A DNA stretch of 44,225 nt, taken from a bacterium (GTDB lineage Bacteria > Planctomycetota > Planctomycetia > Kolteriales > Kolteriaceae). Made by a program: the position numbers and the translations under genes. The DNA is taken from NCBI GenBank assembly GCA_019748235.1, contig JAIEPU010000106.1, forward strand, positions 1 to 44,225. Reading direction: 5' to 3'. This document shows, one piece after another, positions 10,911 to 43,404 of the stretch; positions within the stretch are counted from its first letter, which is position 1, and every line of letters starts with the position of its first letter. Below the pieces are notes generated by a model, which saw only the letters and a list, made by a program, of their open reading frames with translations, did no database searches and was not told where the DNA came from.

Positions 10911-10943
10911 GGATCGTTTTACACGATTCTGGAAAGATGAATT

Positions 10944-18723: not shown

Positions 18724-18783
18724 TCAATGGCCGGCCACGATTCGACTTCATCCCTCGTCGCAGCTTCGCGGAGGAAGCGTGAG

Positions 18784-23400: not shown

Positions 23401-24528
23401 TGGATCAGGATTGTCGCTCGCCGTCATGCCACGATTGCCGAATGCCGCATAGGGCCCTGAATGATTGGCGGAGCGATCGTTCGCATAGACGACGTGACAA
23501 GCGGTGCATCCGCTCGAGCGATAATCACCCGGATGATCGTTGGTTCCCATGAAATTCAATGTCGGGTCGAGGAGGCGAGTTTTTTGCAACCCAATGAAAA
23601 CGGGATCAGTCCGATTCTGTGTTCCGAGCCCACGATCGCTCAACCGTTCGCGCGGCTTTCCCGACTCTTCCTGTGACTCAGGGATTCCCAGTTCCGAACG
23701 AAACCGACCTCCTCGCTCGAAGATGCGAAGAACATTGCCCGGTTGTGAAACTTCAAATCGAGGCAATGGATCGAGGAATGGCAGAACGCCCCGTGCCATC
23801 TCCTCGGCGGTGGGAGCGGGAACGGTTTGCAACCGAACGGGCTTGCCGTTCATCGTGTAGGCTTCGCCGTATCGAGGCCACTTGAAGGGAATCGCTCCGT
23901 TGTTGTAAAGGGCGGCTCCCCAGAGCATGCAACCATGCGTCATCATGCTCTTGCGGTTCTGCAGCACTTCCTTGGGATGACAACCCGCCGTGCCGCAACT
24001 GATGTGGGCGATGCGAAGGTCACCTGGGTTTACGAATCGAACGAACTCGGGGGATTCATCATTGAGAAGCGTGTACGAGCGAACGGGATTCGCGGAACTC
24101 ACCCACGCTTCCGGATGTCGAGGATGCACATGAGCCGCCAACTTGTCGGTTGCCGACGCATCTCCAGCATGACAGTCTGTGCATCCCAGATGCACGTTCG
24201 GCTTATTGACATGCGGATCACCCACGCCCTGATGGCAATGAATGCAACCAGTGCTTTTCGAAGCGGCTTGCTCCTTCGATTGCTTCATCAACTCGACACC
24301 AATGAGATCAGCGGGCATCGGGTACGGATTCGAATCGGCGTATCGCTCCTTCGCTCGGCGCGCGTTGTCCGCGGCCTCTTCCTCACCCGCCGCGAAACCT
24401 GGTCGGGTGGAAGGATTCGGCATGACCGTGAGAACAGCACCAAGGACCATCGCGAGCGTGATGGCCACGGAACCCCATACGCGTCGCCGCAATATTCGAA
24501 GTGAATTGTCTGTTGCCATCGCGTCCAT
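20452..24528 (-). CDS. Ten-heme c-type cytochrome fused to an LVIVD beta-propeller
   Basis: A 1358-residue exported protein with a signal anchor near residues 17-38. Ten heme sites are visible: CIHCH (95), CTDCH (116), CX4CH CGTAGCH (178), CTACH (342), CMVCH (401), CVDCH (559), CVDCH (586), CIACH (722), CFGCH (733) and CNDCH (842). From about residue 943 to 1240 come at least five LVIVD repeats (PF08309), for example 'YAYVAAGPQGVAIVDITNPEVP' in part and 'AYVADGVNGLRVLQL', expected to form a propeller. The heme part should move electrons; the propeller probably binds a partner protein or surface. ATG 24519 is an alternative start; neither has a strong ribosome binding site. It lies between convergent pentaheme genes and an outer-membrane barrel gene on the same strand. 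The substrate is unknown. Confidence 0.9.
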   Translation of the reverse strand: MDAMATDNSLRILRRRVWGSVAITLAMVLGAVLTVMPNPSTRPGFAAGEEEAADNARRAKERYADSNPYPMPADLIGVELMKQSKEQAASKSTGCIHCHQGVGDPHVNKPNVHLGCTDCHAGDASATDKLAAHVHPRHPEAWVSSANPVRSYTLLNDESPEFVRFVNPGDLRIAHISCGTAGCHPKEVLQNRKSMMTHGCMLWGAALYNNGAIPFKWPRYGEAYTMNGKPVRLQTVPAPTAEEMARGVLPFLDPLPRFEVSQPGNVLRIFERGGRFRSELGIPESQEESGKPRERLSDRGLGTQNRTDPVFIGLQKTRLLDPTLNFMGTNDHPGDYRSSGCTACHVVYANDRSANHSGPYAAFGNRGMTASDNPDPTIPKNESGHPIQHAFTSGVPSSQCMVCHIHPGTNVMNSYFGYMWWDLETEAQKMYPAEQRYPTSEEFAKAQMKDPNETSARGLWNDDEFLNDVTDLNALMDKTQFGDFHGHGWVFRAVFKKNLQGTLLDYAGNPIPEVNQALLQEAIRDLSEEELKSDRGKKCAEGSPVHLKDIHLEKGMHCVDCHFSQDVHGDAKLYGEVRAAIEIQCVDCHGSFSKKATLRTSGPAAGDPVDPGIPRGRDLTRMKTPSGKPRFERRGDKIIQNSMVYPYVAWEITQTANTLDPEHPDYNEKSHLAKTVQHRSGGDGFEWGAVPSHDPEKPGLIWNGEVQDEKKCVHASEKMSCIACHSSWNPSCFGCHLPQKANRKLPNLHFEGQVTRNYVAYDWQTLRDDVYMLAKDGNATGNRIGPARSSCAIHVGSYNNNRESIYVQQQTISGEGLSGIAFSTNVPHTVRGNGVGETKMCNDCHLAKDNTNNALMAQLLMHGTGYMNFIGRYCWMAAGDGGLYASVVTEQLEPQTVIGSTMHKIVFPDFYRNHLEKGKQLQDFHHHPGKDISANVFHPFRDVEVLDVQLRGEYLYAACGEGGLKLYDVAFIDNKGFSQRVSTAPVSPLGQRFYVPTRYATSVAAPVTTAPDPTRTHIPENHETPVHAIYAYIYVTDRYEGLILVGAGTTLDGNPLNNFLKREVTFNPDGILNGAESVTIVGTYAYVCCDAGLVVVSIEDPKCPKVTSVVGSDSIQGAKAVAAQFRYAFVCDREGIKVLDISDLSQPKPVAKLDLAHARNIYLSRTYAYVAAGPQGVAIVDITNPEVPNVSQIYDADGCMNDVHDVQLGITYNSAFAYVADGVNGLRVLQLTSPDTPGNNGFLAKPFPHLISTFKPPTGRVLAISRGVDRDRAVDESGNQISVFGRVGARPLELAEQQRLYMHEGRIYRTSNDPSDSIYEYLGPPRDPEKLRRSRIPECVRDRSVNITRQPVEEVDVK

Positions 24529-24676: not shown

Positions 24677-24692
24677 TACTGAGGAATCAGTA
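24677..24692. terminator. Small hairpin overlapping the barrel gene's stop codon
   Basis: TACTGA (24677-24682) and TCAGTA (24687-24692) form a perfect 6-bp stem with a four-base loop that includes the TGA stop of the barrel gene. The stem is AT-rich and no T-run follows, so a terminator role is doubtful. Confidence 0.25.
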
Positions 24693-25799
24693 CTTCAGGC
24701 CGAGTTGCAGGAAAAGCCCAGAGAGGCTCAGATCCCCGGCCTTTTGCGCGAGTTTCGCCGGATTGCCGACGAAACCGACCACATCGTACGTCTGGATCAG
24801 GTTGATCCACTGAGTCACTTCATAACCGACGGTAAACTGAATCGAACGCCAATTGAACTGAGCACCGGTGGCGAGTCCAAAGACAGGAATGACATGTTGA
24901 TCCTTGCTGGAAATGGCGACCTGATAGGTCTGTCCCCCGTCGCTGGTCTGGTGGAGCGACGTCGAGATGTCTCCCACCATCATCGCCACGTCCGCACGCC
25001 CGAAGATTCCGAGCCAGTCGGTAAACCACCAATCCGCTCGCCCGCCGCCGTGCAAACCGATTCCGTGAAAGGATATTGGATTAGAAACGAGTGTCGTGCC
25101 AAAGGCGTTTGTGTAGTACGCATTCATCTCTTGGTCGATCCACGCGCCACGAAGACCTCCGAAGACCCGCCCTTCCGCCTTTTTCCCTAGGGGAAACAGT
25201 CGGCCGATATTCTTGTCGAGTACGTTGTAATTCAGATTGCTTCCTGCCGCCGCCGAGTTGAATTCGCCGCCAAAGACGCTGGGGGCCGTCGACAATCCAT
25301 AGATTGTTCCAACGTTTGGACTCGTCACCTGGCTATTGCCGGCCGTGTGAAAATAGGTGTAGGTCAGATTCGAAAACCATGTGTGATCGTTGTTAACGAA
25401 TCCGATCGTCGACCGAATTCCGGATCGAGTATCCCAATTCGCGGACGAAATCTGCCCCTGCGGGCTCAGGTCGTTCGTCGGGTCGACAAGCGCATAATCA
25501 AGGCCCGGTCGATCCGCTTTCAGCAGCAGATACTCGACATTCCCGAAAAAAATGATCCCCTTTTGCTAGCAGAGCAAACACTGCGTCGTCGATGTGATTG
25601 GACCAGTAGACGAGGAGTCTTCGAGCACGCTTCCAATCGGATCACTGGGAACGACGGGAGTCGCACGCTCTATGACTGGGGGTTCCTCCGCCACCTTCAG
25701 TGCGGAACCCGAGGTACCGGAGTCAAGCGGAGGGGGCGTCAACTGCCCGATCGTTACCGTTGAATGCAAAAGCAGAAAACAGGTGAACACCGCGTTCAT
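24687..25799 (-). pseudogene. Lpg1974-type outer-membrane beta-barrel protein interrupted by an in-frame TAG
   Basis: ATG 25799 follows a GGGGGA ribosome binding site and begins a signal peptide (MNAVFTCFLLLHSTVTIGQ) and a Pro/Ser-rich linker. Codon 78 is TAG (25566-25568). The same frame then continues 'QKGIIFFGNVEYLLLKADRP' and a long beta-barrel resembling Lpg1974/BBP7-like pore-forming outer-membrane proteins, ending 'LSGLFLQLGLKY' with a terminal aromatic. The later part (from about 25328) can be read on its own but has no export signal, so I treat both parts as one gene. CAG to TAG would explain the stop. A sequencing error is possible. It lies 158 bp upstream of the ten-heme cytochrome gene on the same strand. 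Confidence 0.75.
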
Positions 25800-29489: not shown

Positions 29490-31295
29490 TTATCGGCCTC
29501 GACCGCCACGTCCTCCTCCGCTACCACCACCGATTCCGATTCCACCACCCCAGCGTGATCCACCGATGATCCCTTGGAGGATTGATCCACCAGTGCTTCG
29601 GCGTGATGAGTCATTGTCACGCCATTGGCTACCGTATCCACTGCCGCGCTGTTGGTATCCGCCGTTGTTGTAATCACCATACTCCGAGTAACCACTGCTC
29701 GGAACAGGCTGGGTGGTGACCGGTGTCGATGCGACCGGCTGTTCGAAGAGCGCGCTCTTTTGAATGTACCCCTTTAGCTTCTCGCTACCATCAACCGACG
29801 TCACCCAGAACCATTCCCCCTCGACAATCCGCGAGACAATCACAATCTGTCCCTGCTTGACCTTTCCCTTGACGTCGTTTGTCTTGACGTTATTGCCGAC
29901 CACGAGTTCAGCCGTTGCGGCTTTCACAGGGAATGGAATGCCTGGCAACCCGGCTGCCATGTGATCGATCAAAGCTTTGTCGATATCTCCTTTCTGACCA
30001 CGTGAAAGGAATGCGGCTCCGCGACCTTTGCGAGCTTCTTTTGAGATCGATCCATCAACGCTCTTATCATCAATGATCGCGGTATATGCGATGATTGCGT
30101 TTTCGTAGTCACCTTGCTGCAAATAGCTGTCACCCTGTTTGAGAAGAGGCGAGTCAATGCTCTTCGTCGGCTCTTCGATTTTCTTGGCTGCTGCCGGAGG
30201 AGTAACCATGGCGACTTCCACGGGAGCCTTCTCAACAATCGGCTTTTCCGACGCAGGCTTCTCGCTGGCCTTCTCCACCTTCTCCTCTTGTTGAGGCTTT
30301 TCCTCCGCGACTTTTTCTTCCGCTACCTTTTCCTCTTCACCTTTTTTGTCATCGGAAAGCCCGAGTTGGCTGGCAACTTCCACCGGCTTCCTTTCGCGAC
30401 GAACGACGTTTCGAACGTGGGATTCGTCGGGAACAATCGCCAAATCGAACCGACCCACCATCTCACCACGCATCATCGGCCGCTGAACGATTCCGTGAGA
30501 CCTCGCGACGTGGATCTTGGTCTTTTCATGAGCGTAGTAGTAAAGCTCATCGAGCGAGATCCGTCCGTTCTTATTTCCACCAATGTCGACGTTCGAGTCG
30601 GCTGGCCCTTCAAGTCCCTCGATCACGTAGTTCATGAACACGCCGTGCTGAAGCTCGGGATCTTCGGCGGAAAGCTGATGTGGCTCGCAGCTCGACATGA
30701 CGATCAGTCCGCGTGGAGGAGCTTGTACTTGCAATGCAAGGTTGTCCGCCAATCTCCCGGCACGGAACCCGCGTACGATTGGCTCGTTTCGGCAGGCATC
30801 GACGATGAGCAGTTTTTCCCCTGCTGGGCATTGCTCCATCATGTCGTAGATTCGATTGATTTCGACAAGGCTACCCGTTCCATCCAGATTGGCATCCGTT
30901 GGACAGAGATAGCTCTGACCATCGATGTGAACGCCGTGACCACTGAAGGCAACGAGAACGACGTCATCCTTGTTCGCGAGTTGAAGGCGGAGCGATAGCT
31001 CACGCAGGATGTTCGCCTTCGTCGGGTGCATGCGAGACGACTTCGAACGATCGTTCATGAAGGTGATGTTGTCTGGAGCGAAGCCTGCGATTTCGAGATG
31101 CGCTCGCAGATCATCCATGTCGTTGTAGCAGTACTGCAGCTTGCTCAGAGGAGGAGCGTAATCATCAGCCCCGATCAACAAGGCGTACCGCTGAATCTTT
31201 CGGGTCGCGGGACGATCGTCATCTCCCCAGGCAGCATTCCCCGCAACAATGACGAGAAACAGCGAGCAACCAAGAAGGGGGGTGAAGCGGATCAT
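29490..31295 (-). CDS. Exported caspase-like (C14) peptidase with SH3-like domain and glycine-rich tail
   Basis: A 601-residue protein. ATG 31295 is chosen because AGGAG lies eight bases upstream and it begins a signal peptide (MIRFTPLLGCSLFLVIVAG); an in-frame start at 31412 would put 39 residues before it. The caspase fold spans residues 34-290, with catalytic His120 in 'AFSGHGVHIDG' and Cys168 in 'LLIVDACRNEP'. A Lys/Glu/Pro-rich repeat linker (about 310-375) follows, then a TPR-like pair ('SYLQQGDYENAIIAYTAII'), a bacterial SH3-like domain (about 455-520) and a Gly/Arg-rich low-complexity tail. Such orthocaspases cleave after basic residues in characterised cases. Substrate and role here are unknown. 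Confidence 0.9.
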   Translation of the reverse strand: MIRFTPLLGCSLFLVIVAGNAAWGDDDRPATRKIQRYALLIGADDYAPPLSKLQYCYNDMDDLRAHLEIAGFAPDNITFMNDRSKSSRMHPTKANILRELSLRLQLANKDDVVLVAFSGHGVHIDGQSYLCPTDANLDGTGSLVEINRIYDMMEQCPAGEKLLIVDACRNEPIVRGFRAGRLADNLALQVQAPPRGLIVMSSCEPHQLSAEDPELQHGVFMNYVIEGLEGPADSNVDIGGNKNGRISLDELYYYAHEKTKIHVARSHGIVQRPMMRGEMVGRFDLAIVPDESHVRNVVRRERKPVEVASQLGLSDDKKGEEEKVAEEKVAEEKPQQEEKVEKASEKPASEKPIVEKAPVEVAMVTPPAAAKKIEEPTKSIDSPLLKQGDSYLQQGDYENAIIAYTAIIDDKSVDGSISKEARKGRGAAFLSRGQKGDIDKALIDHMAAGLPGIPFPVKAATAELVVGNNVKTNDVKGKVKQGQIVIVSRIVEGEWFWVTSVDGSEKLKGYIQKSALFEQPVASTPVTTQPVPSSGYSEYGDYNNGGYQQRGSGYGSQWRDNDSSRRSTGGSILQGIIGGSRWGGGIGIGGGSGGGRGGRGR

Positions 31296-31560
31296 CTCTG
31301 TGACTCCTGACCATGCCGATTGCACGAACCCAGCGAAGGGGGGACGTGCGAGCGAAAGGGCATTCAAGCGATTCTGCGATAGATACTTGGGTAACGGCTT
31401 TTCCCGTCCCACACCCTATCATGGTTAGTTTACCCCGAAAGCGGACATTCATTTTTTGGAGACTTCGGAATTTGACAAAAGTAGATGCCAAGCTCCCACT
31501 TAAGGGGCATTGGTTCAAGGGATTAAGGGGGTGGCAATCGAGAAGTAGACAGACGAAGTA

Positions 31561-33036
31561 TCACTTCGGCACGGATAGGAAAGGAACGACCGTCGAACGA
31601 AATTCCGATGAGCGTGGATCGAAGTCAGAAGGACTGAGCCGACCCTCAGGAAAGGACAATAGCATTGATAGTTGTTTGAGCTTTTCGTTCTGGTCGGGCG
31701 AAAGATCGCCGTCATCTCGAAGGGCCCGAAACTCGATGAGAAGTTGCGCGGCGACGTCCCAATCCACAGCAGACGGATCATTCATCAGTTGCGAAATTCG
31801 CTCACTGAGACTCTGACGAAATGCTGCTAAGTTGAACTCAACTTTCTGCCCATCCCCTCCCTGCTGAACTTCCTTCATCGCATGGAGAAGAGCATCAGCA
31901 TTCTTCCCGATCTCATCGGGAGAAGTCATTGGATTCACGAGTGAGGAGTCGAGCTCTTTCCAACGTTCAAGGAGCGGCGCGGTCGATATCCCAGGGAAGA
32001 GCACGGCAGCCGCATCCGCAAAGGTGTTGCTGTAATAGTTTCCCCACTTTAACGATCCAGGAGAGGATGCCGACTTCGTCAGCCCCTGCTGGCGCCAAGC
32101 ATTCTCTTTCAAATCATGGTGACAACTAAAACACCGGTATTCAGCGAGTTCAGGCCATCCATTCTTTTCGCCAGTCTCCGACCGATATCTCAGGAGTTCC
32201 AGCCAAGCCCGCATGGCACTCCACTGCCCCGCCGCCCACCTTCTCAGATGCAAGTTCGCGCTTGAATCGTGTTCGTTCCAGTGAGGAGGCATCGCTTTTA
32301 GATACGCATTCAGATCGAACTGTAGTCGAGGATGTCCTGCGGCGATCAAGTCATGATTCACATCTCTGACCGGCAATCCCTGGGGACTGGTCGATGGCGG
32401 GGCCCCCACATGACACGCGGCGCAGGTCTTGGCCCGAGAGAGATCGTCCCCGAGCCAGACCATGTCATGAGCCGCATATGCCTCGCGTAACCGATGATCA
32501 ATATCAGGAGACTTCTCTTTCTTGAGCATCTCCCGCCACGCGTAGTGTTGATCCCGCCAACGATCCGCCCGACCATGGCAGGCTTCGCAACTGACTCCGT
32601 GAGTATCCCAGTGTCCACCGCTTGTGTCGGCCGTTCCAATAGTGGGGGTGCTATGACACGCAAGGCAACGAACATCCTGATCCGCGGGGATAGGGGTGGT
32701 GCCAGGGGGCGACAATCGAAGGGATATACTTTTCGCCAAATCGGACGAAAGGCTCTTCCATGCCTCGGCATGATGATCTCTGGTGGACCAAACGGTGCTT
32801 TCAAGCTGACTCAGGTCACCGTCCGAATGCGGAATAATATCTCCGTGACAGTTTCTCGCGGAGCAGGAATTATCCACCATCACGGGCATGGTGACCGGCG
32901 CTGGAGATTGGGTAATGTCGCTTGGTTTCCCTGCCGGCTTTTCTCGGAATTGCGGAATGGCCACAAATACGGCAATGAAAATCGCGACAGCTGAAAGGAT
33001 CATTGCCGGGTAACGGAGAACGGAAAGGGCGTTCAT
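31561..33036 (-). CDS. Pentaheme c-type cytochrome, third paralogue
   Basis: A 491-residue exported cytochrome with a hydrophobic N-terminus (residues 8-27). AAGGTGA precedes ATG 33036. Heme sites are CX4CH (CSARNCH), CLACH, CEACH, CAACH and CFSCHH, in the same order and spacing style as the cytochrome at 17230-18723, including 'NHDLIAAGHPRLQFDL' before the fifth site. This makes the two close paralogues. The C-terminal half is helical without further hemes. It is divergent from the cytochrome b / NuoEF cluster, sharing the 385-bp upstream region, and is a candidate periplasmic electron carrier for it. The caspase-like gene lies 265 bp downstream on the same strand. Confidence 0.9.
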   Translation of the reverse strand: MNALSVLRYPAMILSAVAIFIAVFVAIPQFREKPAGKPSDITQSPAPVTMPVMVDNSCSARNCHGDIIPHSDGDLSQLESTVWSTRDHHAEAWKSLSSDLAKSISLRLSPPGTTPIPADQDVRCLACHSTPTIGTADTSGGHWDTHGVSCEACHGRADRWRDQHYAWREMLKKEKSPDIDHRLREAYAAHDMVWLGDDLSRAKTCAACHVGAPPSTSPQGLPVRDVNHDLIAAGHPRLQFDLNAYLKAMPPHWNEHDSSANLHLRRWAAGQWSAMRAWLELLRYRSETGEKNGWPELAEYRCFSCHHDLKENAWRQQGLTKSASSPGSLKWGNYYSNTFADAAAVLFPGISTAPLLERWKELDSSLVNPMTSPDEIGKNADALLHAMKEVQQGGDGQKVEFNLAAFRQSLSERISQLMNDPSAVDWDVAAQLLIEFRALRDDGDLSPDQNEKLKQLSMLLSFPEGRLSPSDFDPRSSEFRSTVVPFLSVPK

Positions 33037-33421: not shown

Positions 33422-34402
33422 ATGCTGCTGAACCGACAGACCTGGCCACAACATCGCGGATGGGTAGCTGCGTCTCTCGTCATCGTACTCATTTTCCTCG
33501 TCCTGTTCGTGATCGAAGCCTACCTGTCTCACTCTTGGCCAACCGGGAGCAGCGATGTCGGACTCATCGCGGGGATGTTCGCGGGGGGATTGATTCTCTT
33601 TGAAATGGGTATCTGGGTTCGAAAGCGAGTTCGAACGTGGCGTCGGCTCGGTCGCGCTAAAGTGTGGATGATCGCTCACATTTGGCTCGGGTTGATCATC
33701 ATCCCTATCTCCTTCATTCACAGCGGATGGCAATGGGGTGGACCGCTTAGCACCAGCCTAATGGTCCTGTTGATACTGGTCGTCGGTAGCGGGATCTTTG
33801 GATTCGTGGTTCAACAATTTGTTCCGAATCAAATGTTCAAGGAAGTACCGGCAGAAACGATCTATTCACAAATCGACAACATCGTCCGTTACTATCGCGA
33901 CGACGCGATCGGGCTCGTCCAAGCCGCGTGCGGAACCGAATCATTGAACTTAGAATCGACCTATTCGCTCAGCCAGGAATTCGATCTCGCGGAGTCCCAG
34001 ACTTATCATGTCCTCTCGGTCACCCAATCCCTCGGTGAGATACAGGGAAAGGTCTTTCACACAAAGTCCCGTGAATCGTTCGTGCAGCATTCTCCCGAGT
34101 TGATTGATTTCTTTACGGATTACGTCGACCCTTTCCTGCAGCCCGGTTCGGTTGCTTCGCTCCCCTTGGCTGATTCGGCACACGCGAACAATCTTTTCGA
34201 ACAGTTAAGACGCAACGTCGATCCAAAGCTCCGACCGACCGCGAAACAATTGCAAGAGCTTTGCGATCAACGGAGGCAACTCGTCCGCCAAGCCCAATTG
34301 CATTGGTTGTTGCATGGTTGGCTTTTGGTTCATCTGCCGTTGTCCGTCGCGCTTGTGGCACTTTTGTTCGCGCACGCGTTCGTCGCGCTTCGCTATATGT
34401 AA
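33422..34402 (+). CDS. Membrane diheme cytochrome b-like protein
   Basis: A 326-residue integral membrane protein with about five transmembrane helices: residues 14-34, 46-66, 82-102, 110-131 and 296-321. The third helix carries His86 and His100 and the last carries His304 and His318. Both pairs are His-x13-His, the spacing that holds two stacked b hemes in bc1-type cytochrome b. No standard cytochrome b family could be named. Residues about 140-290 form a soluble domain between the last two helices. The proposed job is to pass electrons across the membrane between cytoplasmic Fe-S partners and the decaheme cytochrome encoded 95 bp downstream. The start is ATG 33422; an in-frame GTG at 33353 is the alternative, and neither has an ideal ribosome binding site. 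Confidence 0.75.
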   Translation: MLLNRQTWPQHRGWVAASLVIVLIFLVLFVIEAYLSHSWPTGSSDVGLIAGMFAGGLILFEMGIWVRKRVRTWRRLGRAKVWMIAHIWLGLIIIPISFIHSGWQWGGPLSTSLMVLLILVVGSGIFGFVVQQFVPNQMFKEVPAETIYSQIDNIVRYYRDDAIGLVQAACGTESLNLESTYSLSQEFDLAESQTYHVLSVTQSLGEIQGKVFHTKSRESFVQHSPELIDFFTDYVDPFLQPGSVASLPLADSAHANNLFEQLRRNVDPKLRPTAKQLQELCDQRRQLVRQAQLHWLLHGWLLVHLPLSVALVALLFAHAFVALRYM

Positions 34403-34497
34403 AGTCATAATTCCAAAGGCATGAAGAGAACGGAATGTTTAGCACTTCAGAAAACAGGATTGAAGTGATCAAATAGCACCGGGGAAAGTTAGCGTTC

Positions 34498-36234
34498 ATG
34501 GCGGATTCACGTTCATCGTCGTCGTCCGATGACCGCACCTCAAAAGGGCGCGCGAAACGTATCCCGCTAGACTACTACAAAAAGCCCGATCTCGTGGGCA
34601 ATCTCAAAACCGCGGCCACTGCGATCGTTGGTGTCATCCTGCTTCTTTGGATCGTGCGAAGTATCGACTTCTCGAATCTGATTCAAGGAAAGGATCCTCT
34701 TTCAGCAGCCGCGAAGAGAGATTCCTCGCACGGCGAGCTCTCCTTTCATCACGCCGCATGGGACACGAAATGCGAGGCCTGCCACCTTTCGTTTCGTCCG
34801 ATCAAAGGAGGTGATGTCATCACCGGCCTCGTCGGACGACCCGATCTCGTCAATCAGAATTGCCAGACGTGCCACGCCGGCCCTCCGCACCATCAAAACA
34901 TCAAAGAAACCAGACAAATAAATGAATGTACCGCCTGTCATAGCGAGCATAAGGGGCGGAACTTCTCCCTGGTCGACTTGAAGGATCGATCGTGCACGCA
35001 GTGTCATTCGAATCTTGCTGAGGCGATGGCTCACCCGAATGACAAATTGGACGATGCCGATAAAAACATCGACAAATTCACGGTCGATTCGCACCCTGAG
35101 TTCCGGGCCGTTAGAGAGCAAGAGGGGAAAGCTCCGCGCGATCCGTCGCATCTCAAGTTCAATCACGCCCTCCATATGAACCTGGGGATGGCAGCGCCGG
35201 GTGGAAAGCCGTTCTTTAAGTATTCAGGCATAACCTCGAACAAAGAACAGTATGGCCACACCTCCACTCCCGACGAGTTCGTTCAACTCTCGTGCACCAA
35301 TTGCCATCAATCGACCGCTAATCTGGCTGACGGAGGTTCTGCACTCATTGATGAACGAAATTTCGTGCCGGTTCAATTCAACAACCACTGCATCGGCTGC
35401 CATTCGTTGGACGTTCCAAAACAACCGACGGAATTGATCGCGAATGCCGCGAAGAATTGGAGCAAGACGCCCGAGGAAGCGAGAGCCGCCTCTCCAATGC
35501 CTAGCACGATCGCCATTCCGCACGGCGAGCAGCCCTCTCGCCTCAAAGAACTACTGCAAAGCACCTATTTCAAGGAACTACTCTCACACGACAAAACAAC
35601 GGCCTCGGAATTGAGTGAACCGCTGGAGATGCCGGGCCCACAAAAGGAGATGGCAAGAAAGCTCCAGGCGACAGTTGATAGCGAAGTGAACTTCGCTGAA
35701 GAGATTTTATATCTGGGTCAACAAACCTGTTCGAAGTGCCACTCATATGTCTCCACCGATGGCAAATCACGCTGGTTTGAGGAGAAACAACTGACGTCGG
35801 AACAGCAAGCCGGTTTCGAAAAGGCGATCGCCACCAATGAATTCAAAGTGGAACCGACCAGCGTTCCTTCGAATTGGATGCCGCGGGCGGTCTTCTCTCA
35901 TAAAAGCCATCGTGCGGTGGACTGCCAACAGTGCCATGCCGCCGCCCATCCTTTGAGTGACAATCGATCTGTTTCATCGCAAGACGTCATGTTGCCCGGC
36001 ATCAGCAACTGCGTTCAATGCCATGCTCCACACCAAAACACGCCCAACGGTCCGATCGGTGGAGTTCGTCACGACTGCGTCGAATGTCATCGTTATCACG
36101 ATGTCAATCTCATGATCGATCAATCACCGCGACCATCAGCCCCCGATCAGCAAAGAAGCATCGAAGAGTTTCTTTCGCCCGCTTCGGCGCAATCGAGTGA
36201 TACCGGCAAGTCAAACAGTGAAAACGGGAGGTGA
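34498..36234 (+). CDS. Membrane-anchored decaheme c-type cytochrome
   Basis: A 578-residue protein with a charged, Ser-rich cytoplasmic tail (residues 1-35), one transmembrane helix (about 38-54) and a large periplasmic heme domain. Ten CXXCH sites are visible, with Cys at 92, 122, 144, 166, 266, 298, 411, 476, 505 and 527. 'ELSFHHAAW', 'LKFNHALHMNLG' and 'VFSHKSHRAVDCQQCH' supply candidate axial histidines, typical of class III/NapC-like multiheme proteins. GGGGAAAG precedes ATG 34498. Its stop lies five bases before the NuoEF start, which suggests translational coupling. It probably takes electrons from, or gives them to, the neighbouring cytochrome b. The final acceptor is unknown. Confidence 0.92.
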   Translation: MADSRSSSSSDDRTSKGRAKRIPLDYYKKPDLVGNLKTAATAIVGVILLLWIVRSIDFSNLIQGKDPLSAAAKRDSSHGELSFHHAAWDTKCEACHLSFRPIKGGDVITGLVGRPDLVNQNCQTCHAGPPHHQNIKETRQINECTACHSEHKGRNFSLVDLKDRSCTQCHSNLAEAMAHPNDKLDDADKNIDKFTVDSHPEFRAVREQEGKAPRDPSHLKFNHALHMNLGMAAPGGKPFFKYSGITSNKEQYGHTSTPDEFVQLSCTNCHQSTANLADGGSALIDERNFVPVQFNNHCIGCHSLDVPKQPTELIANAAKNWSKTPEEARAASPMPSTIAIPHGEQPSRLKELLQSTYFKELLSHDKTTASELSEPLEMPGPQKEMARKLQATVDSEVNFAEEILYLGQQTCSKCHSYVSTDGKSRWFEEKQLTSEQQAGFEKAIATNEFKVEPTSVPSNWMPRAVFSHKSHRAVDCQQCHAAAHPLSDNRSVSSQDVMLPGISNCVQCHAPHQNTPNGPIGGVRHDCVECHRYHDVNLMIDQSPRPSAPDQQRSIEEFLSPASAQSSDTGKSNSENGR

Positions 36235-36239
36235 CGACT

Positions 36240-38006
36240 ATGAGCGCCGAGCCATCAGCGAAGATCGTCCCCCGTTTAATCAAGCTGCAAAAGGAATGCG
36301 GCGGTTATCTTCCCCAGGAACGGATGAGGGACCTCGCCGAGGAGTTGGAAGTACCGCTGTATCGCTTGCAAGCGGTCGCCAGCTTCTTTTCGCATTTCCG
36401 CTTCGACCCGCCTCCTCGGGTAGAAGTCTTGGTCTGTCGCGACATGGCGTGCCATATGGCGGGCGCCGAATCTCTCTGCGATGGACTGGAATCATTGGCT
36501 GCTGAAATTGGCGGCAAGCAAATCCATATCGCCGGCACGTCGTGCCTGGGTCGATGCGATCAACCAGTGGCGATCTCGATCAATGACCGGTATTACTGCG
36601 GCCGCGACGAATTCGAAATAGCCGACCTCGTTCGGGCTGCGATGGACCGAGAAGCATCCATCGACCGCAACCACCGGGCGGACGCAGGGTCCCTCAAGCC
36701 GACGGGATGGAATATCGATCCCTACGACGGAGAACCTCGCTTCACGGTGCTCAAGTCACTTCTTCAGGCCGACGACTTCGAAGCGGCTCGGGAGAAGTTT
36801 CTCAAATCCATCGAAGAGTCGGGTCTTGTCGGTAAAGGAGGTCCGGGCGCAGGGCCGGTGAAAAAGTGGCGAGCCGTCATCAACGCGCCGGGCAAGACCA
36901 AATATGTCGTTTGCAATGCCGATGAAAGCGAGCCCGGAACGTTTAAGGATCGCGAGCTCATGCTTCGCGTTCCCCACCTCGTGGTCGAAGGAGTGTTGAT
37001 CGCCTGCGCCGTTCTCGATGCGGAAAAGGGATACATCTATGTCCGTCACGAATATCCCGAACAAGTCAAAATGCTCGAGAGAGCCATCGCACAGGCTAAG
37101 GCGATCGGACTCAAACGCAAGCGACCCGATGGGTCAGAGCTCAGGTTTGACGTCGACGTATTCGTCAGTCCTGGAAATTACATCTGCGGTGAGCAGTCCG
37201 CCTTGATCGAGGTGATTGAGGGGAAACGGGCCGAGCCGCGGCAGCGTCCCCCCGACCTGGAAATTCAAGGATTATTCGGCAAACCGACACTGGTCAATAA
37301 TGTCGAAACCTTGGCATGGATTCCTTCCATCATCACGCGCGGCGGAAAATGGTATGCCGATTTAGGCATCAACGGCGCGAAAGGAATGCGATATTCTTCG
37401 ATCAGCGGCGATGTGAAGAATCCAGGCGTCTATGAAGTGCCGCTCGGCATCACCGTCGGCGAACTGCTTGACCTGTGCGGTGGCATGGCCGGCGGTGACA
37501 CGTTCAAGGCGTTCGCTCCCTCTGGGCCATCGGGAGGATTTCTCCCTCGTTATATCCCAAGAGACAAACTCCCCGCGTCGTTCGTGCAGTCGGTACTCTC
37601 CGCCGAGGAGAAAGCTTACGATCTTTTCAAGCTGCCCCTCGATAACAACTACTTCCGTTACCAATTGAAGGGAACGATGATGCTGGGGGCCGCTCACGTT
37701 TTTTACGGCTCGCGACGTCGTCTTCTGGATGAAGCCATTAATAACACCGAGTTCTATCGCAATGAATCATGCGGCAAATGCGTTCCCTGCCGAATGGGAT
37801 GCCAAAAACTCGTTGAGATCGGCCATCATCATCTCAGCGGTCCCAACGCTCCCGAGATGATCGATCTCGTCGAAGAGTTGGGAGAGGTGATGTCTTCGAG
37901 TTCCATTTGCGGATTGGGTCAAGTCGCCGCGAACCCGCTTTTATCGTTGATTGAATTCTTTCCCGATGAAGCCGTTCGTCGCGGATCATCTTTTCAGAGC
38001 GTGTAG
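36240..38006 (+). CDS. Fused NuoE-NuoF flavoprotein, NADH dehydrogenase module
   Basis: A 588-residue cytoplasmic protein starting at ATG 36240 after GGGAGG; the upstream gene ends five bases before. Residues 1-140 are NuoE-like with 2Fe-2S ligands Cys66, Cys71, Cys102 and Cys106. Residues 150-588 are NuoF-like. 'NADESEPGTFKDRELM' (from Asn226) forms the FMN site, and SCGKCVPCRMG plus a later Cys (Cys511, 514, 517, 557) hold the 4Fe-4S cluster. The usual GRGGAGFPTG nucleotide loop is replaced by GKGGPGAGPV (198-207), so NADH is not certain as the partner. Similar fusions occur in HoxF- and FdsB-type enzymes. No other complex I genes are nearby. It probably exchanges electrons between NAD(H) and the Fe-S protein encoded 11 bp downstream. 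Confidence 0.9.
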   Translation: MSAEPSAKIVPRLIKLQKECGGYLPQERMRDLAEELEVPLYRLQAVASFFSHFRFDPPPRVEVLVCRDMACHMAGAESLCDGLESLAAEIGGKQIHIAGTSCLGRCDQPVAISINDRYYCGRDEFEIADLVRAAMDREASIDRNHRADAGSLKPTGWNIDPYDGEPRFTVLKSLLQADDFEAAREKFLKSIEESGLVGKGGPGAGPVKKWRAVINAPGKTKYVVCNADESEPGTFKDRELMLRVPHLVVEGVLIACAVLDAEKGYIYVRHEYPEQVKMLERAIAQAKAIGLKRKRPDGSELRFDVDVFVSPGNYICGEQSALIEVIEGKRAEPRQRPPDLEIQGLFGKPTLVNNVETLAWIPSIITRGGKWYADLGINGAKGMRYSSISGDVKNPGVYEVPLGITVGELLDLCGGMAGGDTFKAFAPSGPSGGFLPRYIPRDKLPASFVQSVLSAEEKAYDLFKLPLDNNYFRYQLKGTMMLGAAHVFYGSRRRLLDEAINNTEFYRNESCGKCVPCRMGCQKLVEIGHHHLSGPNAPEMIDLVEELGEVMSSSSICGLGQVAANPLLSLIEFFPDEAVRRGSSFQSV

Positions 38007-38017
38007 AGGTAGCACCG

Positions 38018-40516
38018 ATGCCACGGGTATTTACTTTACCGCCTGACGATCTCCTCCCCTACACCATCGAGGGACAGATCGCCACGCTCGATCAAGCGAC
38101 TATCGAAAAGACGCGTGAAATCGTGACGTTAACGATCGATGGCGAAACGGTCTCGATGCCTCGCGCGGTCATTGCGAAGGACGCCGACCGAAAAGACATC
38201 CTCGACGAGAACGGCCGCGCGACCTACCGATATACCACCATCTACGAAGCGTTGCTCAATCACCTCGAGAATAAGATCGACCGTGAAGATGAGCATGGGA
38301 TGTATGAAAAGTACCCGCTCCTCCGCTTGCAGCGACTGAAAGAGCTGAATCCAATCCCCATCGTCTGCCATCAAGAACATCTTCGCCCCATCGGCGTATG
38401 CCGGATGTGCGTCGTCGAGGTTTTGAAGGATGGTCGTCCAGAGGCAAAGCTTGCGCCGGCATGCCATCGTATTCTCGACAACGGCATTGAAGTCCGCACT
38501 CAAGCGACCAGCGAACGAGTCAAGAATACGGTTCGAACGCTGGGCGAACTTTTGATGTCGGATCAGCCGCCGGCCAAAAATCCGGAAGCAAAGCCGAAGC
38601 TGCATCAACTTGCCGAACGCCTCGGCATTCCATCAGAGAATCGCTTTCCTAAACCTTCCGTGCCGCGTGAAAAGGATCTCAGTTCTCTCATCATCAATGT
38701 TGATCACGACGCCTGCATCCTTTGCGACGCATGCATTCGCTCCTGCACCGACATGAAACATAACAACGTCATCGGTCGAAACGGAAGAGGTTACACCGCG
38801 AACATCGGGTTTGATCTTAACAATCCGATGGGAGATTCGAGTTGCGTCGCATGCGGCGAATGCGCCGTCTCTTGCCCTACCGATGCCCTCACGTTTAAAC
38901 AAGCCGCAGCCCAAAGGTGGGAAGGAGAATACGAACCCGTTCGTTGGCAGGATCTGCTGAAACACCCTCTTTTTAGCGGCGTTTCTCCCAAATTCCTGGA
39001 ATGGAATCAAGGATCGATCATTCGTCGGCGGTACAAGAAGGGAGATGTCGTCTGCCGTGAAGGTGATTTCGGATCGAGTGCATTCCTTATCGAGAGCGGT
39101 CGCTTCGAAGTTTCGATTCAGTCATCGATCGGTCATGTCGAGAAGCAAAAGAAGCCCGGCCTTCTCGCCGGACTCTCGAGCTACGTCAGCAGCCTCTCCT
39201 CTGCTGACTTATCGCTCGGATCGGAAAGCTACAGTAACATCAGTTTGGACAGCACTTATGCGATGAACATTCAAGACGACCGCGTCGTCGTCGCCGAACG
39301 AGGCCCCAAGGACATCATCATCGGCGAGATGACTTGCCTCAATCTCTATCCAAGGTCGGCCACCGTCATTGCGAAGGAAGATGGCGCTGAACTCATCGAG
39401 ATCATGCGCAACATTCTTTACGTTCTCTATCGCAACAAGGCCTCACGAGAGATATTGGACGATCTCTACCGAAAGCGGACCTTTCCTACCGTGCTAAGTA
39501 AGCTAGATCTCTTCCAGAATGTACGGGGAGATGAAGCACGCTTCAAAAAGCTGACGGATTGGCTTCAGCCCAGACTTGATCTGGTCCGCGTCGACCCTGG
39601 GCAACTCATCTTCAAACAGAACGATCCCTCCGACGACTTCTACATCGTTCGGGTCGGGTACGTACGCGTGTCGCAGCGGGGACCAAGCGGCGAGGCCGTC
39701 GTCCGAGATTACATCGGGCCGGGCGGATACTTTGGCGAGATCGCCGCACTCACGGCCGATCCCCATTCATCGTTCTTGGAAGGATTCAATTTCCCTCCCT
39801 CATTCCAACCGGGCAGACGGACGGCCGATTGCAGTGCCGTTGATCACTTGGAACTCGTCAAAATTCAAGGTCGGCATTTCCGCAGGTTATGCGAGCAGTT
39901 CCCCGAAGTAGCATCGCAAATCAAGCTCGAAGCGAAACGCCGGATCAAACAACGTGAAGAGCAAGATCTATTCACCAACACAAATTCGGTAGGCGAATTC
40001 CTCGATCAAGGATTGCAAAACGCTCAGTATCTTCTCGTCATCGACTTGAAGAGCTGCACGCGCTGCGACGAGTGCACCAAAGCATGCTCCGATTCGCATG
40101 AGGGAGTGACCCGACTGATTCGCGAAGGCCTTCGTTACGACAAATATCTCGTCGCTAGTTCGTGCCGCAGTTGCCAAGATCCGGTCTGCATGGTGGGATG
40201 CCCGGTCAACTCAATTCACCGTACCGAATCGCTCGACATCGTGATTGAAGACTGGTGCATTGGCTGCGGGCTGTGCGCGAATAACTGCCCCTACGGCAAC
40301 ATCAATATGCACACCATCACGACCCCGCAGAAGGGAATTGGAAAGCATTTGCAAAAGCCGATCGTTCAACGAAAAGCGACCACCTGCGATACCTGCAAAA
40401 ATGTCGTCGGTCGGAACGATCAACCTAACTGCGTGTATGCTTGTCCGCATGATGCCGCCCACCGAATGAGCGGCCAGGAGTTCCTTAATGTTGTCCGTGA
40501 AGAAAAGCGGCGATGA
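38018..40516 (+). CDS. Multi-cluster Fe-S protein with NuoG-like, twin cyclic-nucleotide-binding and DmsB-like ferredoxin domains
   Basis: An 832-residue cytoplasmic protein without a signal peptide. Domains in order: a NuoG-like 2Fe-2S ferredoxin (Cys117, 128, 131, 149); two 4Fe-4S sites (Cys233, 236, 239, 243 and Cys276, 279, 282, 286); a cyclic-nucleotide-binding domain (about 320-470) with phosphate-cassette GE (436-437) and PRSAT (445-449); a second one (about 495-640) with GE (573-574) and RRTA (600-603) split by a roughly 20-residue insertion; and a DmsB-like ferredoxin with four Cys groups (680-690, 716-728, 747-757, 790-809). That gives up to seven clusters. Parts of these 4-cysteine groups usually share clusters between groups. 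AGAGG precedes the ATG. It could wire the NuoEF flavoprotein to the membrane cytochrome b while a cyclic nucleotide controls flow. Confidence 0.9.
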   Translation: MPRVFTLPPDDLLPYTIEGQIATLDQATIEKTREIVTLTIDGETVSMPRAVIAKDADRKDILDENGRATYRYTTIYEALLNHLENKIDREDEHGMYEKYPLLRLQRLKELNPIPIVCHQEHLRPIGVCRMCVVEVLKDGRPEAKLAPACHRILDNGIEVRTQATSERVKNTVRTLGELLMSDQPPAKNPEAKPKLHQLAERLGIPSENRFPKPSVPREKDLSSLIINVDHDACILCDACIRSCTDMKHNNVIGRNGRGYTANIGFDLNNPMGDSSCVACGECAVSCPTDALTFKQAAAQRWEGEYEPVRWQDLLKHPLFSGVSPKFLEWNQGSIIRRRYKKGDVVCREGDFGSSAFLIESGRFEVSIQSSIGHVEKQKKPGLLAGLSSYVSSLSSADLSLGSESYSNISLDSTYAMNIQDDRVVVAERGPKDIIIGEMTCLNLYPRSATVIAKEDGAELIEIMRNILYVLYRNKASREILDDLYRKRTFPTVLSKLDLFQNVRGDEARFKKLTDWLQPRLDLVRVDPGQLIFKQNDPSDDFYIVRVGYVRVSQRGPSGEAVVRDYIGPGGYFGEIAALTADPHSSFLEGFNFPPSFQPGRRTADCSAVDHLELVKIQGRHFRRLCEQFPEVASQIKLEAKRRIKQREEQDLFTNTNSVGEFLDQGLQNAQYLLVIDLKSCTRCDECTKACSDSHEGVTRLIREGLRYDKYLVASSCRSCQDPVCMVGCPVNSIHRTESLDIVIEDWCIGCGLCANNCPYGNINMHTITTPQKGIGKHLQKPIVQRKATTCDTCKNVVGRNDQPNCVYACPHDAAHRMSGQEFLNVVREEKRR

Positions 40517-40686: not shown

Positions 40687-42633
40687 ATGGACGGGATTGC
40701 CGACGGAATGCTCGCCCGATCACGACCGATTCTGATCATCGCGCTCGTGGTCTCGTGCTGCGCTTCCTGGAATTCGTCGATTCGTGGTGATGAAAAACCG
40801 CTTCCCGTCGTCGAAGTGGACGACGAAACACCGGTTGAAAACAACGAGCCGGCTCCCGCTCGCCCCTTTCCTCCTCTGGTGGATCCGCAAACACTCGAAA
40901 TGAATGAGGAAGCGGCTCAATCGCTCCAGATCGAGGAGGGTCCGTTTCCGCTCCTACGCACACCGGTTGATCCACCTCTCGGTTTTACCGGACCGTCAAG
41001 CATTCGCCCCGAGTTCGTCGAGGAGAACAGCCACTTCATTCCGGTGGAGGATCGTTGGCGGCTCGGCTTCCCCTCTTGGGATCGCTATGGCCAAGGGCAT
41101 CCCATCGTCACTGACTATCCCTACATGCTCGGTAACATTTGGGACCCGTTCAACCAGAACGTGCTCAAGGCGGATTACCCGATCATCGGACAAAACACGT
41201 TTTTGAACATCGCGGTCGCGGACATTCAAAACTTTGAAGGGCGACAAGTCCCCACGGCGACCACCCCCTTTGAAAGCACCGTTCGCCCTGGTGAGCAGGA
41301 CTTCTTCCAGAATCCAAATCAGTTCTTTTACACGAACTTCTTTCGCGTGCAGGTGGATGTCTTTCACGGCGATACCTCATTCAAGCCGCTCGATTGGCAG
41401 ATTCGAATCGCTCCCGTGTTCAACGTCAATCACCTCGCCACGAACGAACTGGCGGTCGTCAATCCTGATGTGCTCGACGGTTCGACTCGGACGCAAACTT
41501 GGTTGTCGCTCAACGAGTGGTTCATCGAGACCAAGCTTCTCGATCTCAGTCCCGACTACGACTTTATGAGCGTTCGTGGTGGTTCGCAGTTCTTCAACAG
41601 CGATTTTCGCGGCTTTATCTTTGCCGACACCAATCGCTCCGTACGGCTCTTCGGTAACCTCAGGGCTAACCGTCATCAATACAATCTGATCTTCTTCGAT
41701 CAGACCGACAAGGACATTAACAACGGCCTGAACACTTTCCGCGATCGCCATCAAAACACGATCATCGCGAACTATTACATTCAAGACTTCATTTGGCCCG
41801 GATACACATCGCAATGGAGCGTCCATTACAATAACGACATGCCGAGCTTTAAGTACGACCGAGATGATGTTCTTGCCCGACCTGACCCCGTCGGCGTCTA
41901 TGGCCCGCACCGAGTCGAGTCGGTCTATTTTGGTTGGACGGGGAACGGCCACATTGATCGATTCAACATCACGCACGCCTTCTATGAAGTCGTTGGACAC
42001 GACACACTGAATCCACTCGCTGGTCGTTCCGTCGATGTCAACGCGCAAATGGGCGCGCTCGAACTCTCCTACGATCGCGATTGGGTACGCTTTCGCGCGT
42101 CAGGCTTTTATGCATCGGGTGACGGCAATATCAACAATGGGCACGCGACCGGATTCGATACTATCTTCGACAATCCGAACTTTGCCGGCGGGCAATTCAG
42201 CTATTGGCAACGAGAGGCCATTCGGCTTGGAGGTGTCAATCTCGTTCAGTCGAACAGTCTCGTCCCGGATCTCAGGTCCAGCAAATTCATGGGGCAAACC
42301 AACTTCGTCAATCCCGGCCTCTGGCTCGTCAACGTCGGGATGGACTTTGAACTCACGCCAAAGTTCCGCATCATTCAAAACAACAACTTCCTCTGGTTCG
42401 ATAAGACCGCTGTTTTGGAACAGTATCTCTTTCAGGCGAACATCAGCCGCCAGATCGGCTACGACGTAAGCGTAGGAGCGGAATATCGTCCGCTGCTGAG
42501 TAATAACGTCATCGTGACCGCGGGGGTCGGCGGCCTGATCCCCGGTCCCGGCTTCAAGGATATTTACAGCCCCATCGTGGGAAGCGTCAATACCCTGGCC
42601 ATGGGCTTCATGCAGCTCGCTCTGGCGTACTAA
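40687..42633 (+). CDS. Outer-membrane beta-barrel protein
   Basis: A 648-residue exported protein. A signal peptide (MLARSRPILIIALVVSCCASW if started at ATG 40708) precedes an acidic Pro-rich stretch (residues 35-100). The rest is rich in alternating hydrophobic residues and aromatics and ends 'MGFMQLALAY', with the terminal aromatic expected of barrels inserted by BamA. No family could be named with certainty. 'QNVLKADYPIIGQNTFLNIAV' resembles N-terminal stretches of uncharacterised planctomycete and acidobacterial barrels. It follows the Fe-S protein gene by 170 bp on the same strand, so it could be the outer-membrane partner of the redox cluster. The LVVSC stretch is also a weak lipobox. 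ATG 40687 is the alternative start. Confidence 0.8.
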   Translation: MDGIADGMLARSRPILIIALVVSCCASWNSSIRGDEKPLPVVEVDDETPVENNEPAPARPFPPLVDPQTLEMNEEAAQSLQIEEGPFPLLRTPVDPPLGFTGPSSIRPEFVEENSHFIPVEDRWRLGFPSWDRYGQGHPIVTDYPYMLGNIWDPFNQNVLKADYPIIGQNTFLNIAVADIQNFEGRQVPTATTPFESTVRPGEQDFFQNPNQFFYTNFFRVQVDVFHGDTSFKPLDWQIRIAPVFNVNHLATNELAVVNPDVLDGSTRTQTWLSLNEWFIETKLLDLSPDYDFMSVRGGSQFFNSDFRGFIFADTNRSVRLFGNLRANRHQYNLIFFDQTDKDINNGLNTFRDRHQNTIIANYYIQDFIWPGYTSQWSVHYNNDMPSFKYDRDDVLARPDPVGVYGPHRVESVYFGWTGNGHIDRFNITHAFYEVVGHDTLNPLAGRSVDVNAQMGALELSYDRDWVRFRASGFYASGDGNINNGHATGFDTIFDNPNFAGGQFSYWQREAIRLGGVNLVQSNSLVPDLRSSKFMGQTNFVNPGLWLVNVGMDFELTPKFRIIQNNNFLWFDKTAVLEQYLFQANISRQIGYDVSVGAEYRPLLSNNVIVTAGVGGLIPGPGFKDIYSPIVGSVNTLAMGFMQLALAY

Positions 42634-42900: not shown

Positions 42901-43404
42901 ATGGCCACGACGAAGACGAAATCCCCTCCGTTCGCAACGAAGAATGATCTGAGTCCAGAGGTCCGCCAGCAAATGATCGATCTGCTCAATCAGCAGCTCG
43001 CGGACACGTTCGACCTCTACAGCCAAACCAAACAGGCACACTGGAATGTGAAAGGGACTGACTTCTACCAGCTTCATTTGTTGTTCGACTCGCTCGCTGG
43101 CGGCGTATTGGAGTTTGTTGATACCATTGCCGAGCGTGCGACCTCGCTGGGAGGAGTTGCTCTCGGCACGGCTCGCATGGCGGCCGATAACTCTTCTCTG
43201 AAGGAATATCCGGTGGATGCTGTCGACGGCCGGTCTCATGTCGAGGCCGTTGCCGCACGTTTCGCCGCGGTAGCCAACAGCACGCGTGCTGCGATCGATA
43301 AGGCCGATGACGCGGGAGATGCCACGACAGCCGATCTCTTCACCCAGCTCTCTCGAGAGCTCGACAAAAACCTTTGGTTCATCGAAGCCCACTTGCAGGG
43401 CTAG
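42901..43404 (+). CDS. dps: Dps-family ferritin-like DNA-protecting protein
   Basis: A 167-residue cytoplasmic protein with AAGGAG before ATG 42901. It forms a four-helix ferritin-like bundle. The ferroxidase ligands match E. coli Dps spacing exactly: His47, His59, Asp63, Asp74 and Glu78, seen in 'QAHWNVKGTDFYQLHLLFDSLAGG' in part and 'FVDTIAERA'. Dps dodecamers oxidise ferrous iron with hydrogen peroxide, store the iron and protect DNA. The N-terminus has Lys residues (MATTKTKSPP) that could contact DNA. It appears to be monocistronic: 267 bp separate it from the barrel gene and a strong hairpin follows. Its place beside an iron-rich redox cluster fits an iron or oxidative-stress role. Confidence 0.96.
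   Translation: MATTKTKSPPFATKNDLSPEVRQQMIDLLNQQLADTFDLYSQTKQAHWNVKGTDFYQLHLLFDSLAGGVLEFVDTIAERATSLGGVALGTARMAADNSSLKEYPVDAVDGRSHVEAVAARFAAVANSTRAAIDKADDAGDATTADLFTQLSRELDKNLWFIEAHLQG

Follow-up and report, generated by a model that had tools for sequence, protein, structure and literature searches.

A planctomycete gene set for a putative NADH-to-surface electron conduit with predicted cyclic-nucleotide sensors

The window analysed here, a stretch of 44,225 nucleotides from contig JAIEPU010000106.1 of the planctomycete assembly GCA_019748235.1 (family Kolteriaceae), carries a set of genes, designated A, B, C, D and E and, further away, X, Z, W1 and W2, which may encode an electron export conduit of the porin-cytochrome type, leading from NADH (reduced nicotinamide adenine dinucleotide) to the cell surface and sensing a cyclic nucleotide; the probability of this reading is put at about one half. 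This gene set in planctomycetes, and a related set in some acidobacteria, probably passes electrons of NADH outward through both membranes. The host genome of 6.34 Mb is 89.8% complete, and the best named matches to D are planctomycete proteins.

The core of the set consists of the four plus-strand genes singled out by the original prediction, whose positions were confirmed, as were the gaps between them (95, 5 and 11 bp), the 5-bp gap applying when C is read from a possible in-frame ATG at 36240. A (33422-34402, ATG start, 326 aa) encodes a predicted diheme b-type inner-membrane protein with two WX3HX13H motifs and an SGXXG motif, B (34498-36234, ATG, 578 aa) a decaheme c cytochrome anchored in the membrane, as judged by eye, by its N-terminus, C (36231-38006, GTG, 591 aa) a NuoE-NuoF fusion, the presumed NADH-oxidising module, and D (38018-40516, ATG, 832 aa) an iron-sulfur (Fe-S) protein composed of a HoxU-like part, two cyclic-nucleotide-binding (cNMP) domains and a DmsB-like four-cluster part. 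The limits originally drawn around the cluster were too narrow, leaving out E, X, Z, W1 and W2. E (40687-42633, plus strand, 648 aa) starts 170 bp downstream of D and encodes a putative outer-membrane beta-barrel-type protein, so named from the strands of a low-confidence model and a C-terminal aromatic residue. Z (20452-24528, minus strand, 1358 aa) encodes a large decaheme c cytochrome with nine CXXCH motifs, one CX4CH and LVIVD repeats. Three genes for c554-type pentaheme cytochromes complete the set: X (31561-33036, minus strand, 491 aa), divergent from A, and W1 (17230-18723, plus strand, 497 aa), each with four CXXCH and one CX4CH, and W2 (18727-20430, plus strand, 567 aa) with five CXXCH. 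The W1 family was met again next to A-B, C-D or Z in other loci. Signal peptides were judged by eye.

Gene order was counted in 80 named loci, some of whose assemblies also belong to the genome sample described below, so that the two sets overlap. C and D are present together in 64 of them and adjoin on the same strand in 63. The homologues of all four core genes do co-occur, and on this point the original prediction withstood the comparison: where 5.5 kb or more precede C (43 loci), the order A>B>C>D is colinear in 33, and A and B lie somewhere in the locus in 36. In a number of genomes the A-B pair is turned towards C-D or sits at another site. Named strains with A-D include Tautonia sociabilis (L077), Roseiconus nitratireducens (L105) and Rubripirellula obstinata (L106). 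That the four genes are chance neighbours was rejected, since the cluster is met again in many genomes. The reading as a scattered complex I module was likewise rejected, complex I genes (NuoE, NuoF and NuoD) forming a separate group on another contig of the same assembly, C116; within the window, a Pfam scan of 16 open reading frames detected no membrane or quinone subunit of complex I and, as originally noted, no complex I subunit other than C and the HoxU/NuoG-like start of D.

Co-occurrence was followed in 75 genomes, namely that of the window with 36 of 91 D-positive genomes, 18 further D-positive genomes with matches to other parts of D, and 20 of 107 negatives; another 36 of the 91 D-positive genomes and 87 of the 107 negatives lay outside the sample. 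E was found in 36 of the 37 genomes of the first group and in 3 of the 38 others; these three (G115, G119 and G135) also have A, and their matches to D fall outside the HoxU part. After a regrouping into 40 genomes with the system and 35 others, made once the result for E had been seen, E is present in 39/40 and 0/35, respectively. Z occurs in 39 of the 40, with only weak matches to its repeat part (E-value about 1e-11) in 4 of the 35, and A likewise in 39, with weak matches in 3 of the others. E is missed once (G086), as are Z (G094) and A (G146), each time in an assembly 81-89% complete. On these counts (39/40 against 0/35) the notion of E as an unrelated neighbour was rejected. Fisher's test for E with Z gives p = 4e-19, kinship being ignored; genomes with and without the system are found side by side in five families and two genera, so that common descent by itself is a poor explanation for the co-occurrence of E and Z. 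The chain from NAD(H) to the periplasm claimed for the four genes finds support in conserved ligands, in gene order and in co-occurrence. The entire machine, however, would be larger than these four genes and would also comprise E, Z, the pentahemes and often a cyclase.

The identity of C as a NuoE-NuoF fusion was confirmed by matches to PF01257 (3.3e-20), PF01512 (2.9e-41) and PF10589 (1.7e-23). In 25 sequences of C the cysteines C69, C74, C105 and C109, C514, C517, C520 and C560, and the glycines G201, G203 and G204 are invariant; we take the first four to be the ligands of cluster N1a, the next four those of N3, and the glycines to belong to the flavin mononucleotide (FMN)/NADH site. D starts with a HoxU/NuoG-like part, which matches models of HoxU and of group A6 [FeFe] hydrogenases as well as solved subunits of NAD-dependent formate dehydrogenase and hydrogenase, and continues through cNMP (PF00027, 3.8e-31) and 4Fe-4S domains to a DmsB-like end; its match to PF13247 stays below the cut-off (19.9 against 26.2 bits). 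The seven clusters originally proposed for D find their counterpart in 28 cluster cysteines invariant in 23 sequences, whose spacing fits one 2Fe-2S and six 4Fe-4S clusters. What are presumably the N1b ligands are invariant in the same 23 sequences, and the His-Cys3 site of N5 is absent from the D of the window and degenerate in related sequences. Both cNMP domains, placed between the two cluster-bearing parts, were confirmed: if the phosphate-binding cassette is taken to follow the motif Gly-Glu ... Arg-x-Ala, both predicted pockets are kept, with G436, E437, R446 and A448 invariant in the first domain and G573 and E574 invariant, R601 and A603 at 90% or more, in the second. C and D thus resemble the HoxEFU/NuoEFG diaphorase in the retained N1a, N3 and N1b ligands and FMN/NADH-site glycines, and differ from it in the lost N5 site, in the continuation of D into cNMP and DmsB-like parts, and in that D would lead to a membrane cytochrome instead of a hydrogenase, formate dehydrogenase or complex I. 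From the FMN of C, where NADH would be oxidised, electrons would move via N3 into the HoxU-like part of D with its 2Fe-2S and 4Fe-4S clusters, next into the DmsB-like four-cluster part and, where D touches A, onto the two b hemes of the latter.

As a diheme b-like protein, A fares as originally described: H86, H100, H304 and H318, the four histidines of a diheme b, are invariant in 43 sequences, all of which also have the two WX3HX13H motifs and SGXXG, and the only Pfam match, to Ni_hydr_CYTB, is below the cut-off (E-value 9.2e-4). The helices of its AlphaFold2 model, of mean predicted local distance difference test (pLDDT) score 87.8, fit five membrane helices when read by eye without a membrane predictor; further helices were placed in the cytoplasm, also by eye, from basic loops. 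A PDB profile search revealed no solved relative of A, its six matches at E-values of 0.1-0.4 being ATP synthase subunit b and one other chain, and Foldseek gave no match at E-value <= 0.001, a search that may miss helical folds. Membership of A in alternative complex III or NrfD complexes was rejected, as neither Pfam nor NCBIfam yielded an NrfD match. Enlarged A-like frames were noticed in three places, one of 566 aa (L063:6193-7893, minus strand) and two of about 700 aa in G115 and G119, with the two matching halves set apart as if by an insert in the cytoplasmic part. The decaheme nature of B was also borne out, its ten CXXCH motifs being invariant in 19 homologues; ten further invariant histidines (85, 131, 151, 199, 223, 226, 342, 468, 471 and 534) fit a second ligand for each heme. 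Its PDB matches are weak and partial: 6qvm, 'Multiheme cytochrome cf' (E-value 1.1e-9), 6r2q chain A (7.8e-8), which we take to be MtrA although the PDB listing names the chain otherwise, and ActA of alternative complex III (3e-7). The b hemes of A would span the inner membrane and hand electrons to the anchored B, from which pentahemes of the X/W type would bridge the periplasm.

The motifs of A connect it with the predicted PCC4 clusters, described as an SGXXG/two-WX3HX13H membrane protein with five transmembrane helices and its motifs on helices 3, 4 and 5, a porin, and cytochromes of 4, 5 and 10 hemes, with Planctomycetes among the hosts; in subgroup II an Fe-S (pfam13247) gene lies directly upstream of the membrane protein gene (He et al. 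2017, PMC5566968, here as far as the accessible part of the paper describes them). The window shares with this description the motifs of A, multiheme cytochromes including decahemes, E as a putative counterpart of the porin and, with subgroup II, an Fe-S protein beside the membrane protein. It differs in having NuoEF and the HoxU-like extension of D, and in placing D after B and C rather than before A, although a variant form of D, designated D', does precede A in some loci. Its cytochromes are the pentahemes X, W1 and W2 and the decahemes B and Z, with no tetraheme among them, and the available part of the PCC4 description mentions no cyclic-nucleotide domains such as those of D. Two planctomycete loci, L065 and L066, look like the subgroup II form: both have a tetraheme, a cNMP-Fe-S protein and a decaheme, and L065 has a membrane protein with the motifs; L065 is homologous to A (E-value 2.8e-12) and D (6.8e-53), and the genomes of the two loci (G028 and G078) have no E and, at E-value <= 1e-10, no Z. 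The system of the window is therefore best read as related to, and not identical with, the predicted PCC4 clusters, which were compared by description.

The same motifs, present in 43/43 sequences of A, raise the possibility of a quinone-linked conduit, in which A, as a quinone-active cytochrome b, either passes electrons from C-D to the quinone pool or receives them from quinol, and B, X and E-Z exchange electrons with a partner outside. Quinone activity was suggested by the authors of PCC4 (PMC5566968, in its accessible part), and D' variants without C exist, so that NuoEF is not the NADH input in every case. A may bind quinone, which puts the originally noted lack of a standard quinone-binding subunit in doubt. 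In the NuoEF form, on the other hand, D joins HoxU-like and DmsB-like parts in one protein and would offer a direct, quinone-free path to A; a quinone-linked conduit is considered rather unlikely. The direction of flow has its own alternative. Outward flow is the preferred reading, since electrons on their way out of the cytoplasm follow the membrane potential and come from a low-potential donor; the reverse, in which a periplasmic or outside donor (a metal or a reduced compound) would be oxidised at Z and A-D would reduce NAD+, would run against both potentials, and the set includes no pump subunit. Such inward flow has in its favour that the PCC4 clusters were originally noticed in iron-oxidising organisms and given an inward model (PMC5566968, same part); it nevertheless appears quite improbable.

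At the outer membrane, export to the surface would depend on E and Z. E is a single-copy gene without a Pfam or NCBIfam match, conserved in 20 sequences that all end in Phe or Tyr, and its low-confidence model comprises about 19 strands, which would fit the outer-membrane barrel of a conduit. All ten heme motifs of Z are kept in 11 sequences, the CX4CH site being CXXCH in 2 of them, and Z, with its ten hemes and LVIVD repeats, would be the terminal redox protein, presumably at the surface and facing some outside partner or substrate. The pair recalls the MtrCAB and OmbB-OmaB-OmcB conduits, in which a barrel and multiheme cytochromes cross the outer membrane. E has no PDB sequence match at E-value <= 1. 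Counterparts by description are the group 1 PCCs from a 2026 ghost-rock metagenome, in which a decaheme gene of 4-5 kb lies beside a porin of about 20 strands, with a gene named ferredoxin-NADP+ reductase near 7 of 11; as far as the accessible part of that paper goes (PMC13264449), they are very like E-Z with a nearby NDH-2, and its description includes neither A-D nor NuoEF nor cyclic-nucleotide domains. They look like E-Z, again by description. Another porin-multiheme system was reported by He et al. from Verrucomicrobia (PMC5615132, seen in part). Of the 28 loci that extend at least 2 kb past E, 16 have Z there on the strand of E, in 15 cases within 1 kb. E adjoins D in the window and in L093, and E, A and B are contiguous in L095.

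Among loci of Acidobacteriota type, the genes D'-A-B-X-E-Z stand on one strand in L143, L144, L147 and L150, with a PP2C phosphatase gene in three of them; E is matched in all ten genomes of L139 and L142-L150, the match in one of these, G201, being partial. Altogether 25 of 247 Acidobacteriota genomes have E, and E-Z loci were fetched from 20 of the 25. In all of them (20/20) Z comes after E, on its strand and no more than 1.5 kb away; seven (L208, L213 and L222-L226) have the D'-A-B set in the fetched stretch. The record of L144 is titled as an Acidimicrobiia metagenome-assembled genome, its cluster is closest to Acidobacteria loci, and it is possibly misnamed or a mixed bin. Its D' (L144:9959-12238, plus strand) has a terminal FHA domain (PF00498, 1e-18), and next after B comes a PP2C-like gene, a hint that phosphorylation could act as a further control alongside cyclic nucleotides.

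A source of the messenger is often encoded nearby. At least 15 of 36 genomes encode a class III nucleotide cyclase no more than 15 kb away from D, A or E, and a sixteenth has one at 16 kb; 2.5 genomes were expected, and the maximum in 200,000 simulated sets was 11. In L067, which comes from a member of the same family as the window, the genes D', A, B and X face those for a GAF-class III cyclase and an NDH-2 that ends in a cNMP domain; relatives of NDH-2 recur in L139, L148 and L211, the last together with a cyclase relative. The NDH-2-type NADH dehydrogenase of L067 (11095-12873, plus strand) is an unusual fusion, which would let the messenger act on a second NADH entry. Judging from gene content, NADH may thus enter by two routes, through NuoEF or through a cNMP-bearing NDH-2 encoded next to D'-A-B, and the paired cyclic-nucleotide domains of D could set the flow in response to a messenger from the GAF-class III cyclase. 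A stronger version, in which a quinone-free valve across two membranes, common to Planctomycetota and Acidobacteriota and with interchangeable inputs (NuoEF or cNMP-fused NDH-2), has its extracellular export switched by a cyclic nucleotide, can be put forward tentatively and is more open to doubt than to belief.

Several observations weigh against an NADH-to-surface conduit sensing cyclic nucleotides. The model of E, of mean pLDDT 51.6, is too poor to classify its fold. The genome of the window has a single cyclase match, located on another contig and 32% identical to the L067 cyclase over 473 residues. Compared with typical wire cytochromes, Z is far more conserved, at a mean column identity of 58%, and has a larger number of residues for each heme. 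Such conservation suggests a defined partner or substrate, and Z may instead be a dedicated enzyme, to which E admits a specific substrate and for which A-D is the electron partner; many invariant residues besides the heme ligands, the LVIVD repeats and a stretch of two hemes that resembles NrfA and eight-heme nitrite reductases, at non-significant E-values of 0.09-0.9, are in keeping with this. No known catalytic family was matched by Z, however, nor did a PDB profile search give a solved relative (best E-value 0.09), and there are no candidates for a substrate or an active site, so that an enzymatic role is held to be improbable. Gene order also counts against a single conduit: in the window Z lies 16 kb from E on the opposite strand, in 12 of the 28 loci mentioned above Z does not follow E in that stretch (a few loci representing one assembly twice), and in many planctomycete genomes E and Z lie apart from A-D. 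Among the 20 acidobacterial E-Z loci, 13 have no convincing D'-A-B set in the fetched stretch, which weakens the tie between A-D and E-Z, and a relative of C occurs in only two (L208 and L213). From the separate loci one might suppose two systems with a shared lifestyle, A-D serving another periplasmic partner and E-Z being needed in the same niche; this is made very improbable by the near-perfect co-occurrence within families and genera and by the contiguous arrangements in the window, L093, L095 and the four acidobacterial loci.

That no characterised enzyme is known to have this set of genes, as originally stated, stands, and among the open-licence papers listed none was recognised in which a conduit of this type is combined with NuoEF and with an Fe-S protein carrying cyclic-nucleotide domains; the statement is now to be qualified by the predicted relatives already in print, PCC4 (PMC5566968) and the 2026 PCC group (PMC13264449), each judged from the accessible part of its source. 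If the conduit reading is right, planctomycetes and acidobacteria, common in soil and water, hold an NADH-driven outward electron route, its redox chain carries its own messenger sensors, and the conserved but unnamed protein families A, D, E and Z acquire a testable function.

Other genes of the window include one for a Dps-type ferritin-like protein (42901-43404, plus strand; PF00210 and a Dps model) after E, and one adjoining X (29490-31412, minus strand) for a secreted-looking caspase-domain protein (PF00656, 5e-21) with tetratricopeptide repeat matches. A protein kinase gene adjoins a gene with sigma-70 region 2, resembling the extracytoplasmic function type, at 8658-11723 on the minus strand. 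Scans for regulatory sites counted 0 promoter-like sites against a mean of 4.5 in shuffled sequences, and 9 terminator-like sites against 9.7. Directly upstream of Z and on the same strand lies a gene for a short barrel-type protein (24687-25328, minus strand; PF05150, 9e-23), a protein absent among the best matches listed for 142 loci (tblastn, E-value <= 1e-8).

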